DNA from: a virus
DNA: 39,917 bases
Virus record (IMG/VR): IMGVR_UViG_3300032309_001000
Location: 1-39,917 of that record
Reading direction: 5' to 3' (one strand)
A program made the translations under genes and the position numbers. Every line of letters begins with the position of its first letter. Positions within the stretch are counted from its first letter, which is position 1. The notes under the pieces are model-generated. The model had not been told where the DNA came from. It saw only the letters and a program-made list of their open reading frames with translations, and ran no database searches. This document shows positions 7,213-39,917 of the stretch, one piece after another.

Positions 7213-9609
7213 CTAGTTGAAGTAGTATTCACTCTTCAAAACCTCAGTCACGTCCAGAGAACCGTACTCTGGAACTTCAGGAATTATAGCAGAATTTGGA
7301 AGATAAGTCAATACCTCCCGGCGGAACTCTGCCAGCACATCGTGCTGAAAGATTTCAACAGTAGCCTTTCGCACACAAGAAGCAACTACTGGTACATCAG
7401 CAGCGAGACACAAGATCTGGTCATGCACTGATCCGATGTCTTGAACGCCTTGTGCTTGGCACAGGTTGACTGTCTTACCTAGCAAGCCACCGATGCCATC
7501 AAGACTGTGAACAAAGTTTGGAGCAGCTCCGTTCAGTGCCTTGCGCTTCGACTGCTTGCCGTTCTCCTCACGGATGGTCAGCACACGAGCACGAGCACCG
7601 ATCCTAGTGGACACGGTCATCGAGTCGTAGTTCTCGTAGCGCATCCGTACAGGTAGACCGAGCGGGGTGCTCCATCGTGGAGTGATGTCATGATCGACAA
7701 GAACTCCCATGCAGTCTCGAATGAACTTCATTCCTCGCGTGGCTGATCCAACAACATCCTCCATCGAGTTCCAAATCATCTTGCCCAAGAACGCAGCTGG
7801 CTTGTAGATCTCAAGGCCGAATGGATTAGAAAGGTGACGAAGACGATCATCAAGCCACTCTCGCGTGTACCCGATGCATGAGTGCTGCGTCAGCCCATAA
7901 GGCAATGTCATGGTCTGACGCTTCGTGGTGCTCCGGTCGATGCCGAGAGACAGCAGACCCTTGGCATACGGCGAGTCTGAGACAATCAGTTTATCGATGA
8001 CTCGATTAGCCACTGCTTGATACGGATCCGCAGGTGCTGAACTAGGAAGTACGTTCGTTGCAGCAGCGGCGACTGGGTCACGGAGAAGAAGCGCATAGAT
8101 CTGAAGTCCCTGAGTGGTGGCATCCATGCCGATTGGAAGTCGAGAGATGTAGCCGAAGCCGCGATTCCAGAAGTTCGTCAGCTCCTTACAGGCAGCGTAG
8201 AACGCGAATGGATCGTCAGCCTCCATCCATTGTCCGTTGGCTATTGGATCGTTTCCACTACATTTGATGAGATCTGTATTACTTTCGATCCAGTTGAGGC
8301 GATGCTCTTTGGACTTCTTGTCCAGTCCCCACTTGTTTGCAGTGTGAAGCATCAGTGCTTCTAGCTGCTGTTGAGTTTGGATCGGCTTGCCTCGGGCGAA
8401 CCGCAACATTGCTTTGGCTACGCCTGTTCCCTGTGGGTGGAAGAACAAGGGCAAGGGATAAGCACGGCCACGGAAGTCCAGCTGCTGCGGGTAGAAGATC
8501 CGCTCGTAGGTCTTCATCTTGTCCGCAACGAACAGGGTCTTGAGAAGCTGAAGACGCTGACTCTCAAGAGACTCGTTGTGGAAGTAGACCTTGGCCGCAG
8601 CCTTGCGCCACTGGCGACGAGAGTCCGCATTGGTCTCGATATCGTCTGGCTTTGTTGGAACTGCTTCGTCTTTTGCGCTGGGCAAGCCATCGATTTTCCA
8701 CGAGCCCTTCCACGATTCATGTACTAGTTCGTGTACTTCTTGATCTACCTGCCAAGGCGTGGCCTGAATCATATTCGTGGCGTGATAGATTAATGATAGA
8801 TCGCAGCCAGAAAGCTCGGTCTGGTACTCTTTGTTCCGAGTCTTGATCAGAGGGCGCGGTTTCCAATCCAACTGACGGTAGCCACCGATCCACGGATTGG
8901 CCCAAGGGAGCGGACGCTCGACCATGGGCAGGAAGAAAGGAGTCAGTTCTTCGTGGTACTCGTGGCACTTCTTCACCCAGTCACTGATGTCCTTGCTAGG
9001 TGCAACAGCGCAGTAACGACGGCCACGAGCATTTAACTTGGTCAACAACTGGATGATGTTGGTACGCATGGCCATCATCTCGACTAGTACGACACCAAGA
9101 GCGAGTGCGTCTGCCTTGGCCCATCGTTGGGTTACGAGATCCACGGCTTTCGCAGCGTCCCGAATGAAACGACGTTTCAATCCTGCACCAACAGACTTGA
9201 AAGACAACTGCTGCATCTTCCTGAAGAAGTCTGGCTCCTCTTGGGCGAGTTTCTCCAACAGGATTTCGTCTTCAATAGCACGACCAACAGCGATGCACAG
9301 GGATGTCATCATCCTTTCAGTGCTCAACCCATCAATGATGACCTTTGAGGCAATTACGGCCATCTTGTCTGCGGGCAACATCTCCACAAACGGGAGACAT
9401 CGGTGATGCTTTCCCGGACTGGTACGCGCCTTTACGAGCCAAGCCTCAATTCCAAGCCTCATTTCCTCTGTGCATCTGTTCAGGAGCTGACGGCCAGGAA
9501 TTGTGTTGGATTCTGCGACAATTTCGCTGGCCTTCTGCTTTCGGGAGCGGTATCGAGACTTCCCGAGTGAGCGCATTTCGGCTTGCAGAGCGTCCTGTTT
9601 GATATCCAT
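7213..9609 (-). CDS. Single-subunit DNA-directed RNA polymerase, T7-like
   Basis: A 798-residue enzyme (T7: 883). Conserved elements in order are DFRGRAYPLP at 378-387, motif A PIGMDATTQGLQ with D496, motif B R559 to G572 (DRSTTKRQ, then LPYG) and motif C VHDQ with H729-D730. The stretch PNFVHSLDG (697-705) precedes motif C as in T7. It should transcribe replication and late genes from phage promoters, which I could not identify. No ribosome binding site precedes the ATG; the message may be leaderless from the promoter at 9617-9646. Upstream are two terminators and one copy of the early hairpin, so the gene is separated from the early block. The shortening is mostly before the catalytic core. 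Confidence 0.97.
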   Translation of the reverse strand: MDIKQDALQAEMRSLGKSRYRSRKQKASEIVAESNTIPGRQLLNRCTEEMRLGIEAWLVKARTSPGKHHRCLPFVEMLPADKMAVIASKVIIDGLSTERMMTSLCIAVGRAIEDEILLEKLAQEEPDFFRKMQQLSFKSVGAGLKRRFIRDAAKAVDLVTQRWAKADALALGVVLVEMMAMRTNIIQLLTKLNARGRRYCAVAPSKDISDWVKKCHEYHEELTPFFLPMVERPLPWANPWIGGYRQLDWKPRPLIKTRNKEYQTELSGCDLSLIYHATNMIQATPWQVDQEVHELVHESWKGSWKIDGLPSAKDEAVPTKPDDIETNADSRRQWRKAAAKVYFHNESLESQRLQLLKTLFVADKMKTYERIFYPQQLDFRGRAYPLPLFFHPQGTGVAKAMLRFARGKPIQTQQQLEALMLHTANKWGLDKKSKEHRLNWIESNTDLIKCSGNDPIANGQWMEADDPFAFYAACKELTNFWNRGFGYISRLPIGMDATTQGLQIYALLLRDPVAAAATNVLPSSAPADPYQAVANRVIDKLIVSDSPYAKGLLSLGIDRSTTKRQTMTLPYGLTQHSCIGYTREWLDDRLRHLSNPFGLEIYKPAAFLGKMIWNSMEDVVGSATRGMKFIRDCMGVLVDHDITPRWSTPLGLPVRMRYENYDSMTVSTRIGARARVLTIREENGKQSKRKALNGAAPNFVHSLDGIGGLLGKTVNLCQAQGVQDIGSVHDQILCLAADVPVVASCVRKATVEIFQHDVLAEFRREVLTYLPNSAIIPEVPEYGSLDVTEVLKSEYYFN
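7283..7311 (-). promoter_or_regulatory. Sigma70-like promoter inside the RNA polymerase 3' end
   Basis: On the minus strand TTGACT (7306-7311) and TATAAT (7283-7288) are separated by exactly 17 bases. The elements lie within the last 35 codons of the RNA polymerase gene and point at SSB. This is a near-consensus host promoter; activity is inferred. Confidence 0.6.
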
Positions 9610-14290: not shown

Positions 14291-14669
14291 TCGTGAGCAG
14301 CACACCCAGTGTTAGAGTTGTCGTGGTGAGCCACAGCACATCCCGTGTTCAAGTGTCGTGGGGAGCCGCAACACAGATGACATTGCGATCTAGGCCGCGA
14401 GCCGCACTGAGGCGCAGCCGAAGTTGCTGGCGAGCTCCTGTCGAGCCAAGACACATCCAGTGTTGAGTTGTCGTGGGGAGCCAAGACACATCCAGTGTTG
14501 GAGTTGTCGTGGGGAGCCATGGTGCATCCAGTGTTCAAGTTTAGTGGGGAGCCATGGTGCATCTAGTGTTCAAGTTTAGTGGGGAGCCATGGTGCATCCA
14601 GTGTGATAGTTCTAGTGGGGAGCCGCGATACATCTAGTGTTAGAGTTGTCGAGGGGAGCCATTACTCAG
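14291..14669. repeat. Tandem array of about 36 bp units
   Basis: About nine to ten units of 30-37 bases with the core GTGGGGAGCC, six variable bases, then CATCCAGTGTT. Unit starts are near 14291, 14321, 14356, 14441, 14471, 14507, 14544, 14579, 14615 and 14649. The array is broken between about 14375 and 14440. Units are contiguous with no unique spacers, so it is not CRISPR. Confidence 0.9.
14404..14427. repeat. 24 bp direct repeat, copy A
   Basis: Identical over 24 bases to 16174-16197, in the same orientation. It begins GCACTGAGGCGCAGCC. Confidence 0.9.
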
Positions 14670-15786: not shown

Positions 15787-15903
15787 TTAGATAATTCCGG
15801 TGGCGCGTGCGCAGTCGATCACCAAGAGAAGTACTACGGTGGCAATTACGAAAGTGATGCCGCCTAGAATTACGAGGTCGTCGAATTGTGGTTTCCGTTG
15901 CAT
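15787..15903 (-). CDS. Small single-pass membrane protein
   Basis: A 38-residue protein: charged N-terminus, then one membrane segment at about 10-29 (VILGGITFVIATVVLLLVI). AAAGGAAA lies five to six bases before the ATG, like the other early genes. It would be the first gene read from the promoter at 15956, where T7-like phages place small host-takeover proteins. Function unknown. Confidence 0.65.
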   Translation of the reverse strand: MQRKPQFDDLVILGGITFVIATVVLLLVIDCARATGII

Positions 15904-15955
15904 TGTTCTTTCCTTTCGTGGTTCTCTGATTCCGTCGCGGAGTTGCGACAAGGGG

Positions 15956-15983
15956 AGAATACACTAAGCCGCAGAAATTACAA
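15956..15983 (-). promoter_or_regulatory. Sigma70-like early promoter
   Basis: TTGTAA (15978-15983), 16-base spacer, TATTCT (15956-15961). The spacer begins TTTCTGCGG, shared with the promoter at 10749. It is the first early promoter after the late genes end. Confidence 0.55.
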
Positions 15984-16029
15984 GTAGTTTGCACCGAAAC
16001 CGGCGGAAATTGTTTGGAAACTTTCGCGG

Positions 16030-16048
16030 AGTGAAACGGCGTTTCACT
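16030..16048 (-). repeat. Early-region hairpin copy 6
   Basis: Minus strand AGTGAAACGCCGTTTCACT: perfect 8 bp arms, loop GCC instead of AGC. It stands about 45 bases upstream of the promoter at 15956-15983. Confidence 0.9.
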
Positions 16049-16173
16049 GGGGCTCAGTTATCGGGCCTCCCCCCCACCGCTAGGCGGGAGTGGCGGAAGT
16101 ACCCCTATGATAGAGAGAGCAGCAGCCCCGCTTGAGCGTACAGCGACAAGGTTTGAGCGAGGGTACATGAGCA

Positions 16174-16197
16174 GCACTGAGGCGCAGCCGAAGTTGC
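16174..16197. repeat. 24 bp direct repeat, copy B
   Basis: Second copy of the repeat at 14404-14427, 1,770 bases away, in gene-free DNA. Confidence 0.9.
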
Positions 16198-16348
16198 AGC
16201 GAATGCCTGTTGGATTCGTAAGGCTGTCTGTTGATGTCTTGAACACCAGAGGGAAGAGCGCGAGAAACCGTAGGTTTCTGGCACTGCGAATAAAGAGAAA
16301 CGTCAGCAAGACCATTGGTTGTCTTGTTGTCTTGAAGTAAGAGAGCAA

Positions 16349-16553
16349 TAGAAGACATACAGAGACACAACAGAGATACACTAGAGATGTACATAGGCAC
16401 ACACATAGATACATCAGAGATATACTTAGGTATATACAGATAGGAGAGAAAGAAGAATAGAAGAAAGAAGTACAGAGACAACCAGAGATGCATTAGAGGT
16501 GCATCTGAGACAGTTAGAGATGACCAGAGATGGTTGGAGACAGTTAGAGATGA
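16349..16553. repeat. Phased 10-11 bp repeat array
   Basis: About sixteen units with consensus YAGAGATRNAC. Seven consecutive 11-base units occupy 16360-16436. After a purine-rich interruption (16437-16472) eight more units of 10 or 11 bases occupy 16473-16553. The period is close to one helical turn. The setting recalls the short repeat arrays that flank the terminal repeats of T7. Confidence 0.85.
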
Positions 16554-16843
16554 ATAAACGGGAAGGTAAAGCCATAGGCCCACCTCCCCGCGCTGCACCT
16601 CAAGCCCTCAAAGAGAACTTAAAGTTTCCTACAAGTTGCCTGTGATGCTCAAATCCCTTTCAGAAGTCCAGAGTTAAGCCTCATCAATCCTGTGGAATAG
16701 AACCGAAATAGACGATAGGGAACTTCTGGTAAATCAGTAGTACTGGGTATATGGGGGTATTTGAGTTTCACTTCCTCTTTCAAACCCTCTCAGATTTTTT
16801 CCCCAAACATTCGACCCCACTAGAAGTAGAACTTAAAGTTCCA

Positions 16844-16990
16844 TCAATAGGAACTCTTGCTCTGCTTCTTCTTGATCTTCACTTTCTCCGGAAGCTTGGC
16901 CATGCTTGGAGTCTTCTTGGCCCACTGCTTGGCCTTCTCAGGCATCTGTGAGAACATGAACCGTTGCTGTGCTTTGGACTTGAATGGCAT
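16844..16990 (-). CDS. Conserved small basic phage protein
   Basis: A 48-residue basic protein beginning MPFKSKAQQRFMFSQMPEKA, followed by KQWAKKTP-x-MAKLPEKVK and a lysine-rich tail. This pattern (PFKSKAQQR-MF, then AK-WA-x-TP, LPEK) is a common tiny gene of tailed phages, function unknown. AGGAG lies seven bases before the ATG. It is the last gene of the late block before the gene-free region. Confidence 0.85.
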   Translation of the reverse strand: MPFKSKAQQRFMFSQMPEKAKQWAKKTPSMAKLPEKVKIKKKQSKSSY

Positions 16991-17019
16991 AGCTTTGCTC
17001 CTAATGGCCCTAGGATCGT

Positions 17020-17385
17020 CTATAAGGCTTCCGGACTGTCCGGTAGGCTCTGACTAGGGGGCCAGTCTAAGTGGTCTGTAATGGGCTCCTGCTGGCTTTT
17101 CCGAAGACGGTCAACCAGCCAACGATTCTGAAGGAAGACAGTCATGAGACCAACCTCCAGAGTGCGGATCTGAGATTCATCAAGGTTGAGACCATTGATC
17201 TCAGAGATCATCTCCATGACCTCATGAAGTATGGTACTAGTTTCTACTTCCTCTCTCAACCTAAGATTAATAGCAATCCTAGGGTAAGGAAAGAAAGAGA
17301 ACTCACCAAAGTCACCTTCAGGTAACTTAGAGGTAACTACAGGAATACTGTAGTGGCCATATATAAGGACTAGGGGGAGCTTCAA
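17020..17385 (-). CDS. Putative zincin-like small protein (HExxE)
   Basis: A 121-residue protein. Residues 51-58 read TILHEVME, a short metal-ligand-like H54-E55...E58 motif followed by GLNLDESQIRTLEVGL. Similar short phage proteins with an LHE-x-x-E helix are common and are sometimes compared with metallopeptidases. Activity is not known. The start is a TTG overlapping the HNH gene stop (TTGA) with GGAGG five bases upstream, so the rare start codon is well supported. Confidence 0.65.
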   Translation of the reverse strand: MKLPLVLIYGHYSIPVVTSKLPEGDFGEFSFFPYPRIAINLRLREEVETSTILHEVMEMISEINGLNLDESQIRTLEVGLMTVFLQNRWLVDRLRKSQQEPITDHLDWPPSQSLPDSPEAL

Positions 17386-17603
17386 GCTTTCCTCCGATTG
17401 GCTCTACGAGACATGATTTGAAGGTTGGAACGTCTATTGTCCTTGGGGTTCCCGTTCTTGTGGTCTACTTCTTTACCGTCTCCCTTACGGACCTTTCCTT
17501 CTTTGATCATGAGTCTTCGTGCTTTGTTCCGGTTTGATCTGTGGTTGATCTGCTCCGGCTTTGCATGGTACTCACGGTATTCTTTCTTGTAGTCTCGTGC
17601 CAT
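17382..17603 (-). CDS. HNH endonuclease
   Basis: A 73-residue basic protein with the HNH core KEVDHKNGNPKDNRRSNLQ at about 44-62: DH (first histidine), N in DNRRSNL and the following basic helix. Small HNH nucleases beside terminase genes assist packaging-linked cleavage in several phages and can also be free-standing homing enzymes. There is no ribosome binding site of note; the gene follows the upstream stop by two bases. Confidence 0.9.
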   Translation of the reverse strand: MARDYKKEYREYHAKPEQINHRSNRNKARRLMIKEGKVRKGDGKEVDHKNGNPKDNRRSNLQIMSRRANRRKA

Positions 17604-18205: not shown

Positions 18206-18372
18206 TTAAACTCCTTGCACATTTCCATGATTTCGGGGGACACGGATTCACGCATCATTCTCATGCCTCGGGCTAGGTCTTTGGCAGAGCTGATGTGACC
18301 ACTGGACTTGAGATGGTCTTCGTAGAGCAGAACAACAGAAGCCATCAGGATTTGCAGTTCGTCTACATCCAT
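18175..18372 (-). CDS. Small hypothetical protein
   Basis: A 65-residue, mainly helical protein. AAGGAGG four bases before the ATG gives a strong start. It overlaps the terminase end by ten bases and the next gene by 31. Unknown family. Confidence 0.7.
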   Translation of the reverse strand: MDVDELQILMASVVLLYEDHLKSSGHISSAKDLARGMRMMRESVSPEIMEMCKEFKCQAPVKARA

Positions 18373-20012
18373 GTGTCCTCCTTGGGACGGCGGCCTACAG
18401 CGTGTTCCATAAACCTCTCTAGTTCTTTTTGGAGCATCTGTTCCCTGAAGTTGGCCATCTTCCTGTCTGCATCCTGAGCCATCTTGTCTGCCCAGAAGCC
18501 CACAGCCATGCTGAGGCAGTCAAGACGGTCATCGTGGTACAGAGATCCCTTGGCTCGACTGATGCGACTGAGCTGCCAGATAAGCGAAAATTGGAGAGCT
18601 TTCTCGCTGGCATATGCTTTGGTGGACTCGTAATCGTTTTTGATGACTGCGATGTCCAAGACCAGACGATGCTGACACAGCACAGGCTCCAGAGTGTCAA
18701 TGATCCGGCGTTCCTTCTGGATGTTGTGTCTGACTTCTTCAGTGGTGCATGGGTACTCACGCAACAAGTACGGCTTGAGCAGCTCAGTGAACATACCGTC
18801 ACCGAAGTTGGACTCGATCAGGATCAGATTGACCTTGTTGTCCTTGGCGATCTTGGTCAGCTTCTTCATGACCTCCTCGCCGTAGCCACCAGCAAGTCCT
18901 CCTGCCTGTGTCACATACAAGAAGCCATTCAGCATCTTGACAACGCAGTAAGCCGTCTCGTCACCACCACGACCCGCAGGATCGATTGCCATGATTCCAC
19001 CCTCATAGGGAATCCAGCGTCCTTGGATCTCCATGGGAGCGTAGAAGCGATCACCGTTGAAGCCAACACAAGGCAGATCCTTGACGATGTTGTTTGGATT
19101 CATCGCCCAGATGGGCTTCTCAGGGGCATTTTCAGGGTTGAGCCCAAACACAATCAAGTCGTTGATCTTCAGTGGATATCGATCAGCATCGCTGAGGGTC
19201 GAGTCCAGCATGAACTGAAGCGCAAAGCCCGTTCTTCCATAGGACGCCTCACGCTCCATCAGATCCATAGCGTCGAATCGCTTGGGATCCGTGGGGTCTC
19301 CAGACTTGCCTATGCGGAGCAGTGGAGCCAACTTCTCACCGAATGCGACCTTCAGCCGATCTTCGGGGAACCGTGCTGGCCATACGCGGGTCACATACCC
19401 CTTTTCGGCCAGACCGTGGTAAATCGATTGTTCCGTCTGGGGCGTACCTAGGTAAATGATCTCCCCACCCGGCTTCAAGACTGCTTCGAACTCAGCCGTG
19501 CTGGCCAGCAGCTTGTCCCGCATCACGGCGGTAGCAGAGTTGTTCAGAGACTCAACGTCATCGGCAATGATCAGATCGCCACGGCTACCAGTGATCTGGC
19601 TGGTGATTCCCTTTGAGACCACGCTGGGAGCCTGACTAGGTGGAGCAGGACCAACATCAAAGGCGATCTTGCTGTTTCTCTGGTTGTCCTTTGGCTTTAG
19701 ATGCTGGCAGAACGGGATCTCATGGATCAATCGCAGAGTGAATGTGCTGAAGTCATCTGCTCGTTGCTTGGAGGCAGACACAACCAGAACATTGAGGGTC
19801 GGGTCATGCAGCAGTCTCCAGACAACATATGCACTGGTTAGCCAGCTCTTTCCCACTCCACGGAACGCTTGGATGACTCGACGCCGTGGACCCTTCTGTA
19901 GAAACTTGGCAATGTCCAGCTGCACAGGAGTAGGCTCAGGAAGCCCAAGGTGATCCCACGCAAGACATACAAAGTTGCGGAAGTCCTTGAGCTTGTCCTG
20001 TGCCTCGCTCAT
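18363..20012 (-). CDS. Terminase large subunit, T7 gp19-like
   Basis: A 549-residue protein (T7 gp19: 586). The N-terminal ATPase has Walker A RGVGKSW at 51-57 and Walker B LIIADDVES at 147-155; an LGTPQTEQSIY segment follows as the coupling motif. The C-terminal nuclease starts at GGIMAIDPAGRGGDETAY with its metal-binding aspartate and ends with YHDDRLDCLSM. It packages DNA through the portal and cuts it at the genome ends. The ATG overlaps the small terminase stop (ATGA). Confidence 0.96.
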   Translation of the reverse strand: MSEAQDKLKDFRNFVCLAWDHLGLPEPTPVQLDIAKFLQKGPRRRVIQAFRGVGKSWLTSAYVVWRLLHDPTLNVLVVSASKQRADDFSTFTLRLIHEIPFCQHLKPKDNQRNSKIAFDVGPAPPSQAPSVVSKGITSQITGSRGDLIIADDVESLNNSATAVMRDKLLASTAEFEAVLKPGGEIIYLGTPQTEQSIYHGLAEKGYVTRVWPARFPEDRLKVAFGEKLAPLLRIGKSGDPTDPKRFDAMDLMEREASYGRTGFALQFMLDSTLSDADRYPLKINDLIVFGLNPENAPEKPIWAMNPNNIVKDLPCVGFNGDRFYAPMEIQGRWIPYEGGIMAIDPAGRGGDETAYCVVKMLNGFLYVTQAGGLAGGYGEEVMKKLTKIAKDNKVNLILIESNFGDGMFTELLKPYLLREYPCTTEEVRHNIQKERRIIDTLEPVLCQHRLVLDIAVIKNDYESTKAYASEKALQFSLIWQLSRISRAKGSLYHDDRLDCLSMAVGFWADKMAQDADRKMANFREQMLQKELERFMEHAVGRRPKEDTWM

Positions 20013-20218
20013 GCGGCTTCCTCCTCATCTGGATCGAATGGCATGACCTTGGCAAGGTTCAAGAGCGGTTCTGACGCCTTCATGTTGGCATCGATGCCGT
20101 TGTCCTTCAGGAACTGCCTAGCCACATTCAGGTCAGCAGGACTGGCTTCTCCGGATTGAATCCGGTTCAGCAGTTCTGCTCCTAGGGCATTGTGGAGTTG
20201 TTTGAAGAGTTCGTCCAT
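20009..20218 (-). CDS. Terminase small subunit, T7 gp18-like
   Basis: A 69-residue protein from the ATG at 20218, four bases after the upstream stop; a TTG at 20242 would add eight residues. It contains ELLNRIQSGEASPADLNVARQFLKDNGI, typical of gp18-type small terminases, and an acidic tail (FDPDEEEAA). It recognises the concatemer and hands it to the large subunit. No clear ribosome binding site; coupling is likely. Confidence 0.8.
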   Translation of the reverse strand: MDELFKQLHNALGAELLNRIQSGEASPADLNVARQFLKDNGIDANMKASEPLLNLAKVMPFDPDEEEAA

Positions 20219-20222
20219 GAGA

Positions 20223-21194
20223 TCACGAGGTGTAAAGTTCAATTCGGAAAGCTTGACTTGTAGCTAATGGGAATACCGAAAAGCTTGTTGAAGAAGTCCA
20301 CATGACGTAGTTGCCTTGAGGAATATTGTTTTCCCCGCCTAAAATACGAGGATTTGTGAAAACCCTGTAGTTGTTTCCGTAGACATTCGGGGGTCCGTAA
20401 TAGACCTTCAAGTATGAATTGGGAAACTGAGCGATAAAGGCAGCAGCTCTGTTGTTTGACCCAAACACGTTAGAAGGTCTAAGAGAAATCATTGGTTTGT
20501 TGTTGTCGTATTCGTAAACATTCCAAATCTTGCCAGTATCTAATGTTGATGGGGATGATGGAGACCCGAAGAAAATTGGCGGAGAGTTTGCAATGTCATC
20601 AGCATCTGGATCGGTAAATGTATAAGAACCAATGAGCTGTGATGACCCCATTGAACTCGAATAAAACTGACTTGTAGTTGTTCCTGCTGCCATCCAAGCC
20701 CACCCAGTACCGTAAGCGGAAAACTCAGGCTGAGCATCAGGAGGAGGAATATCAGAGGACACCGTCACAGTAAAGGTGTCAAGAACAGTGTCGTTGTCTG
20801 AAGCATTCAACACTGAGACAAGGTTTGAACCCGCTTTTGTAGCCAAACATCTAAAGGCTACATAGAAATTTGGGGCCACCGAAAACGATGTCCCCGAAGC
20901 AGTAGTTGTCCATGTTGCATTTCCAGCCAAAAGATCAAGGATATCTGAAGCAACATATCGCTGCATATTTCCTTGAGCTGTCGAAAGTTTCAGATTGATT
21001 GCTTGAGTTGTTCCAGTCACTTTTTGGTAGGTATAACCAGAAACTACTGTTGCTTGTGTGTAGAGATTGAGCCAGTTCAAGTACTCAGGAACAATCCCAT
21101 TTGTCGGCTGTCTTTCAAGTGTAGAAGACAGGTCAAATGAAAGACCATCGCTTGTGGTCCTGTCAAAAGCTGTGAAGACAACAAGGTTTTTCAT
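20223..21194 (-). CDS. Probable virion or tail-tip protein
   Basis: A 323-residue protein rich in serine, threonine, asparagine and aromatic residues, predicted beta-rich, without recognisable domain. Its composition and place in the tail fibre module suggest a receptor-binding or fibre-associated protein. The gene is visibly richer in A/T than the terminase next door, which is common for exchanged adhesin genes. Confidence 0.6.
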   Translation of the reverse strand: MKNLVVFTAFDRTTSDGLSFDLSSTLERQPTNGIVPEYLNWLNLYTQATVVSGYTYQKVTGTTQAINLKLSTAQGNMQRYVASDILDLLAGNATWTTTASGTSFSVAPNFYVAFRCLATKAGSNLVSVLNASDNDTVLDTFTVTVSSDIPPPDAQPEFSAYGTGWAWMAAGTTTSQFYSSSMGSSQLIGSYTFTDPDADDIANSPPIFFGSPSSPSTLDTGKIWNVYEYDNNKPMISLRPSNVFGSNNRAAAFIAQFPNSYLKVYYGPPNVYGNNYRVFTNPRILGGENNIPQGNYVMWTSSTSFSVFPLATSQAFRIELYTS

Positions 21195-39818: not shown

Positions 39819-39917
39819 TGCACCTCGTTCTGCTCGTTGTAGACTTGCCACAGGGTTCTAACGAGCGCGCGTTGCCCTGCGTAGAAGAAAATATCCCGCT
39901 CCCCCATGGAGAGATCG
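39815..39917 (-). CDS. Small protein upstream of portal module (5' end missing)
   Basis: The frame enters from the right edge and ends at TGA 39815. The visible part contains GERDIFFYAGQRALVRTLWQ and NEQNEVQ. An ATG at 39906 has no ribosome binding site, so the gene probably continues beyond the window. T7 gp6.5/6.7-type position; family not recognised. Confidence 0.5.
   Translation of the reverse strand, partial: DLSMGERDIFFYAGQRALVRTLWQVYNEQNEVQ

Follow-up and report, generated by a model that had tools for sequence, protein, structure and literature searches.

A degenerate short-repeat array beside the predicted terminal repeat of a T7-like phage as a possible fast-evolving element of the concatemer junction

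The stretch of DNA analyzed here, which we call the window, is a viral contig of 39,917 bases on which every gene lies on the minus strand. In the gap that separates the last late gene from the first early promoter, it contains an array of 16 degenerate units of 10-11 bp, which are arranged as two blocks of eight around a 27-nt tract (window 16356-16552). The array is non-coding. We read it as the left-end (early-side) short-repeat array of the phage, a fast-evolving, T7-type cis element with multiple sites that would lie at the concatemer junction, and we place the probability of this reading slightly below even. A preliminary description of this DNA had claimed a phased array of about sixteen units at this location, and both the units and their placement were confirmed.

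The phage carrying the array is a member of the Autographiviridae, or T7-like phages, as indicated by the presence of RNA polymerase, primase-helicase, DNA polymerase, portal, capsid, and terminase. Profile matches for the family, all on the minus strand, were to phrog_414 (single-subunit phage RNA polymerase, 7213-9609, 5e-203), phrog_239, phrog_17, phrog_449, phrog_267, and phrog_38 (terminase large subunit, TerL, 18363-20012, 1e-110), with the terminase small subunit (TerS, 20009-20242) matching phrog_891 at 1e-15. Comparison of RNA polymerases gave Pelagibacter, Roseobacter, and Rhizobium phages (32-35% identity) as the nearest named phages, and phage records yielded no DNA match to the window at the megablast level. 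No relatives were retrieved when the first early gene was used as a probe. The record has no end repeat, and in relatives about 0.9-1.2 kb separates the positions that match its last and first base, so a short segment is missing from the record at 39917/1. The record is therefore a linear contig that is broken inside the genome and spans the late-to-early junction, a layout that is as expected if the assembler collapsed two terminal repeats into one.

On the coding (minus) strand, the units of the array run from 16552 down to 16356. Block A (16470-16552) consists of eight units of 10, 10, 10, 10, 10, 11, 11, and 11 nt (CATCTCTAAC, TGTCTCCAAC, CATCTCTGGT, and so on) that share the core [AG]TCTCT, the complement of AGAGAT, and it is kept in the related contigs L002 and L003. 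The tract that follows (16469-16443) is pyrimidine on the coding strand and purine on the plus strand, which accounts for the purine interruption noted previously, and it is identical in L002 and L003. Block B (16356-16442) comprises eight units of 11, 10, 11, 11, 11, 11, 11, and 11 nt (ATCTCTGATGT, ATCTCTGTTGT, GTCTCTGTATG, and so on) and is kept in L002. Raw autocorrelation of the array was weak at lags 10 and 11 (z of 1.9 and 1.7), whereas local recurrence of 8-mers was clear, with a count of 12 in the array compared to 1.5 +/- 2.0 in shuffles, and a scan by this measure placed the array as the top-scoring place of its kind in the whole record. The 7-mer chain score of the window array was 12, with shuffles averaging 6.1 and reaching at most 9; the 6-mer chain score was only marginal, as 9 of 400 shuffles reached it. 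Scores for the 7-mer chain were higher in L002 (15) and L003 (20), which indicates that the window holds the most degenerate copy of the three, and it is these relatives that carry the case for the array. An Rfam search of 15800-17400 returned no match.

On the sense strand, the host-type promoter-like element nearest to the array, TTGTAA...TGTATTCT, was identified by eye at about 15990-15960, some 350 bp beyond it. Other repeats occur in this part of the genome and beyond it. A palindrome, GTGAAAC-N-GCGTTTCAC or a close form, has five copies on the minus strand (16047, 14032, 11779, 9744, and 6112), one of which lies about 60 bp ahead of the likely early promoter. Relatives bear other palindromes near there (ATCCCAAATTTGGGAT, GTCCAATTGTTGGAC, GTCTCAGCACTGAGAC, and ATCCCGAATTCGGGAT), and by analogy these differing palindromes look like operators of different immunity types. 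The early region also contains a 35-bp imperfect tandem array of about six copies (14298-14375 and 14443-14662; consensus GAGCCATGATACATCCAGTGTTAGAGTTGTAGTGGG).

The position of the array relative to the genome ends was evaluated from two landmarks. The motif AAAAATCTGA-N-GGGT, with CCCCC 25-40 nt further on, occurs downstream of TerL in nearly all close relatives. In T7 and T3, AAAAATCTGA precedes the first base of the terminal repeat by exactly 17 nt; a close form in LUZ100, AAAAATGCGA, lies 29 nt before the terminal repeat, the form in ProddE lies 30 nt before its predicted direct terminal repeat (DTR), and the CRP-227 record terminates inside the motif. Most of 73 further viral loci also have the motif after TerL, with its C-run 25-40 nt past it, and among 80 loci taken from cellular genomes, 20 have it by a strict rule. 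The longer form AAAAATCTGA-N-GGGTATA...CCCCC, which begins at 16799 in the window, is conserved in T7-like phages and prophages (e.g., L157, L145, and L209). Within the window, this family-wide motif reads AAAAATCTGAGAGGGTTTGA (16780-16799, minus strand), and in the four named phages with a known or predicted repeat, T7, T3, LUZ100, and ProddE, it stands 17-30 nt upstream of the left edge. The right edge in T7 and T3 is preceded by TCTCT-N-TGTGTCCCT and followed by ATCTGTTA, and in several other phages it is marked by TCTCTCTATCTGTT. The counterpart in the family of the window is a pyrimidine tract with CCCGTTTG, located 154-237 nt past the left motif. In the window, this landmark is CCCGTTT (16556-16562, minus strand; YYTMCCCGTTTG starts at 16562), which is conserved in 13 relatives and may be compared with CCCT|ATCTGTTA in T7. 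A 37.5-kb contig, G001/L025, ends exactly at the landmark (CCCGTTTGTTATC) and is the only contig ending there, and a 48-kb contig ends at TTCTCTTTCTCTAT. Across loci, contig ends were denser around both predicted edges, at 0-50 and 150-300 nt after the motif, with 12 of 50 ends falling in these 200 bp.

Based on the window landmarks at 16799 and 16562, we predict a DTR of about 220 bp (16559-16775, minus strand), with its left edge taken from the motif, its right edge from CCCGTTTRTT and the end of G001/L025, and both edges placed to within 10-15 bp. The array would thus begin a few bases outside the right edge of the predicted DTR. Copies of the array unit were not found inside the predicted repeat, and no companion array was detected on its late side by genome scans and inspection of 16800-16900. 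A terminator-like hairpin, GCGGGGAGGTGGGCC..GGCTTTACCTTCCCGT followed by TTATT (16558-16591, minus strand), was considered as a conserved late terminator and rejected, as it is absent from more distant relatives. Shortly before the late end, the inverted repeat GGAACTTTAAGTTC(C) (16835-16856) also occurs in L004, L010, and L025 and is perhaps a late transcription signal.

Arrays of short repeats beside the ends of T7 have been known since the T7 sequence was read. To our knowledge, their function has never been settled, and among the papers searched none gives a tested role. In T7, the CCTAAAG units start at position 175, which is 15 nt after the 160-bp repeat, and are spaced at 12-13 bp. Like the left array of T7 and T3, the window array is positioned immediately past the right edge of the terminal repeat and ahead of the early promoters, with the window edges being those predicted from motifs and a contig end. 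Both have at least 10 short direct repeats (16 in the window) with a conserved core and loose spacers, and both have a sense strand with C over G. In contrast, the core is [AG]TCTCT in the window and CCTAAAG in T7, and the spacing is 10-11 bp rather than 12-13 bp. The parallel therefore holds in position and fails in core and spacing. The conserved edge motifs, which place the terminal repeat directly beside the array, bear out the T7-analogous map position that had been suggested. The earlier proposals of a packaging mark or a protein-binding array are plausible in this light. The accompanying suggestion that the units are phased by one helical turn applies to this lineage but not as a general rule, since T7 units are spaced at 12-13 bp and those of other arrays at 9-12 bp.

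The array is present in two independent relatives, L002 and L003, which come from two other samples. L003 is longer by 30 bp, corresponding to three extra 10-bp units in block A, and L002 has one extra 11-bp unit in block B, which indicates that copy number shifts in whole units while the phase is kept. About 14 other close relatives with terminases 88-99% identical are without the array, so conservation of the period, proposed earlier as a test, extends to the two nearest relatives but not to these others. The array is thus specific to this lineage, and because most relatives with a near-identical terminase are without it, it cannot be essential for terminase as such. One relative, L008, matches the window up to the first CATCTCT and diverges afterwards. 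Even L004, with 99% terminase identity, differs in sequence from the terminal region onward, so this stretch is readily exchanged. Among the window, L002, and L003, the array varies more than its flanks; between the window and L002, differences number 16 of 206 positions in the array and 9 of 225 and 5 of 275 in the flanks. Within the array, variable sites account for 4 of 80 core positions and 13 of 90 spacer positions (Fisher p 0.04). Five relatives without the array of the window (L004, L014, L015, L018, and L025) have 2-5 copies of GTTATCGGAC, distributed inside the predicted terminal repeat and over its right edge, and GTTATCGGAC is possibly an alternative terminal repeat element in relatives of this kind.

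Arrays with unrelated cores occupy the same position in CRP-227 (CCTGCCG, spaced at 9-11 bp), HTVC201P (CACAAGC), and four uncultured phages or prophages; the array is ATCAACACGG in L131, GAGCCCTGCCT in L104, and CACACTCATAGC in L123, and that of L209, a locus carried by a Maritalea genome, is CGCAAAGAYACC. The differing cores at this spot include CCTAAAG, CCTGCCG, AGCCCTG, ATCAACACGG, CACACTCATAG, and CGCAAAG, and of all results, their recurrence at a single map position is the one of most interest. Chain scores of at least 12 were obtained for 7 of 54 loci at +200-400, immediately past the edge, three of them from the lineage of the window and one (L121) a T-rich run, compared to 0 of 54 at +0-200, inside the DTR, and 1 of 53 at +400-600. 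None of 174 other segments scored 10 or above, a comparison to be read with the knowledge that the score was designed after seeing the window case and that the control segments are mostly coding. High scores in L121, L146, and L152 reflect T-rich runs, and those in L010 and L020 come from an alanine-rich reading frame further out than +430; neither group was counted as arrays. In a second sample, 18 loci taken from cellular genomes, there was one array, with a score of 11, and none at 12 or above, which suggests that arrays are a minority feature whose rate is uncertain. The sense strand at +200-400 favors C over G across loci with or without arrays, with a mean skew of -0.111 +/- 0.018 compared to 0.015 and -0.006 on either side, and the second sample showed skew in the same direction (-0.096 +/- 0.036).

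The strongest competing account, which we consider unlikely but worth weighing against the T7-type element, is that the array is a passive product of slippage and has no sequence-specific role. The spacer that separates the early promoter from the terminal repeat does not code for protein, has little G, and undergoes frequent breakage and re-joining as concatemers form, so short tandem repeats would arise and turn over there. Whole-unit shifts of copy number (+30 bp and +11 bp), divergence of the array faster than that of its flanks, absence of the array from most close relatives, and a core that differs from lineage to lineage are all consistent with slippage. However, arrays cluster at +200-400 rather than in the equally non-coding terminal repeat (7/54 versus 0/54), and variable sites are scarcer in the core than in the spacer (4/80 versus 13/90). 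Moreover, the units are not simple tandem copies, as cores recur with diverged spacers, and the strand bias of C over G is also seen in loci without arrays. That arrays concentrate beyond the edge and that the core is less variable count against slippage, which nonetheless keeps some probability.

A second alternative concerns the edges themselves. The short contig L003 ends at 16064, exactly between GGTGGGGGGAGGCC and CGATAAC, which would permit a terminal repeat of about 715 bp that contains the array and ends near this point. DTRs that run to hundreds of bp occur in T7-like phages, with 985 bp in phiIBB-PF7A as an example (PMC3080317). Yet a single short contig that ends at a G-run is a weak indicator, and the family-wide CCCGTTTRTT and the end of contig G001 both lie on the other side of the array, such that we regard the longer repeat as quite improbable.

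Transcription offers a further, still less probable explanation, in which the array is a pause site or roadblock where late transcription from the terminal repeat stalls past the cut and holds terminase. The class II pause signal ATCTGTT is located in the T7 concatemer junction (PMC11617373), and the window shares with that junction a homologous place and a pyrimidine tract followed by CCC and a motif of the [AG]T[CT]T type (CCCGTTTATT in the window and CCCTATCTGTTA in T7). Stalling might be repeated because the units, which read CATCTCT, resemble the class II signal HATCTGTT, with CATCTCT being one base from CATCTGT. The signal is also present near the right edge of several relatives, and overall 7 of 37 loci have ATCTGTT, mostly after a pyrimidine tract, no more than 450 nt from the motif, compared to 0.04 expected per locus. 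Unlike T7, the window lacks an exact ATCTGTT at its predicted edge, with GTTTATT at the landmark instead. The arrays of other lineages (CCTAAAG, CCTGCCG, and AGCCCTG) are unlike ATCTGTT, and class II signals are not obeyed by every phage polymerase, as illustrated by VSW-3 (PMC9624206), both of which argue against a pause array.

The preliminary description had also raised an intrinsically bent DNA element, which would correspond to a pac site of the SPP1 type. TerS of SPP1 and SF6 is thought to select bent pac DNA (PMC4737164), and the window array has nearly one repeat per helical turn. Curvature prediction did not uphold the idea: for mean curvature in a wedge model, the array ranks at the 53rd genome percentile, an average value, with mild curvature confined to the array edge (about 16525-16600), and phased A-tracts are absent. 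The SPP1/SF6 pac site with its TerS ring shares with the window direct repeats at a packaging start and the idea of many weak contacts (PMC4737164), but it lies within terS of a headful phage and relies on bent DNA, whereas the window array is an end repeat beside the terminus of a fixed-end genome with no predicted bend, and we consider a bent element highly improbable. Finally, the 172-aa frame at 16080-16598 is open in the window, as may be expected by composition because stops are scarce in CT-rich DNA, but a protein-coding repeat is refuted by three stops in L002 and one in L003, and the frame has no PHROGs match.

Returning to the reading that we prefer, in which the array is a T7-type element with multiple sites, the array would lie directly outside the right edge of the DTR, where the concatemer is cut and the unique early region begins. 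Many weak, equivalent sites, spaced here at roughly one per helical turn, could form a platform that holds the maturation complex on the early side of the cut, with the complex being TerS, or TerS and TerL with a paused phage RNA polymerase. The array appears well placed to hold or position such a complex because it would start within a few bases of the junction site. The ATCTGTT signal in the T7 junction (PMC11617373) and its occurrence near the motif in 7 of 37 loci also favor this reading. TerS (20009-20242) is the first candidate for the binding partner. In such a platform, avidity rather than any single site would count, so the core could drift and be re-amplified by slippage, which may explain why each lineage has its own unit. 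Because unrelated cousins carry other repeats at the same spot, the array appears to belong to the genome-end machinery and to change rapidly.

More speculatively, T7-like phages may share a terminus design in which the left-edge signal is conserved, the right-edge signal is rich in pyrimidines, and a multi-copy array with a lineage-specific core lies just outside, with the arrays sharing only a spacing of 9-13 bp and a C-rich, G-poor sense strand and serving as a specificity code that co-evolves with TerS. We consider this general proposal improbable as it stands; if it is true, the code would enable each lineage to cut and package its own concatemers. Terminal repeats are usually collapsed in assemblies, and the edge motifs predict DTR edges for uncultured T7-like phages, such that AAAAATCTGA-N-GGGTATA...CCCCC could serve to locate the edges of terminal repeats in uncultured genomes. 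The natural variants, in which the array is present, absent, or built on another core, can be used to test the role of the array. Taken together, the unrelated arrays at the T7 position and edge motifs that can be read from sequence alone turn what was a curiosity of T7 into a comparative question.
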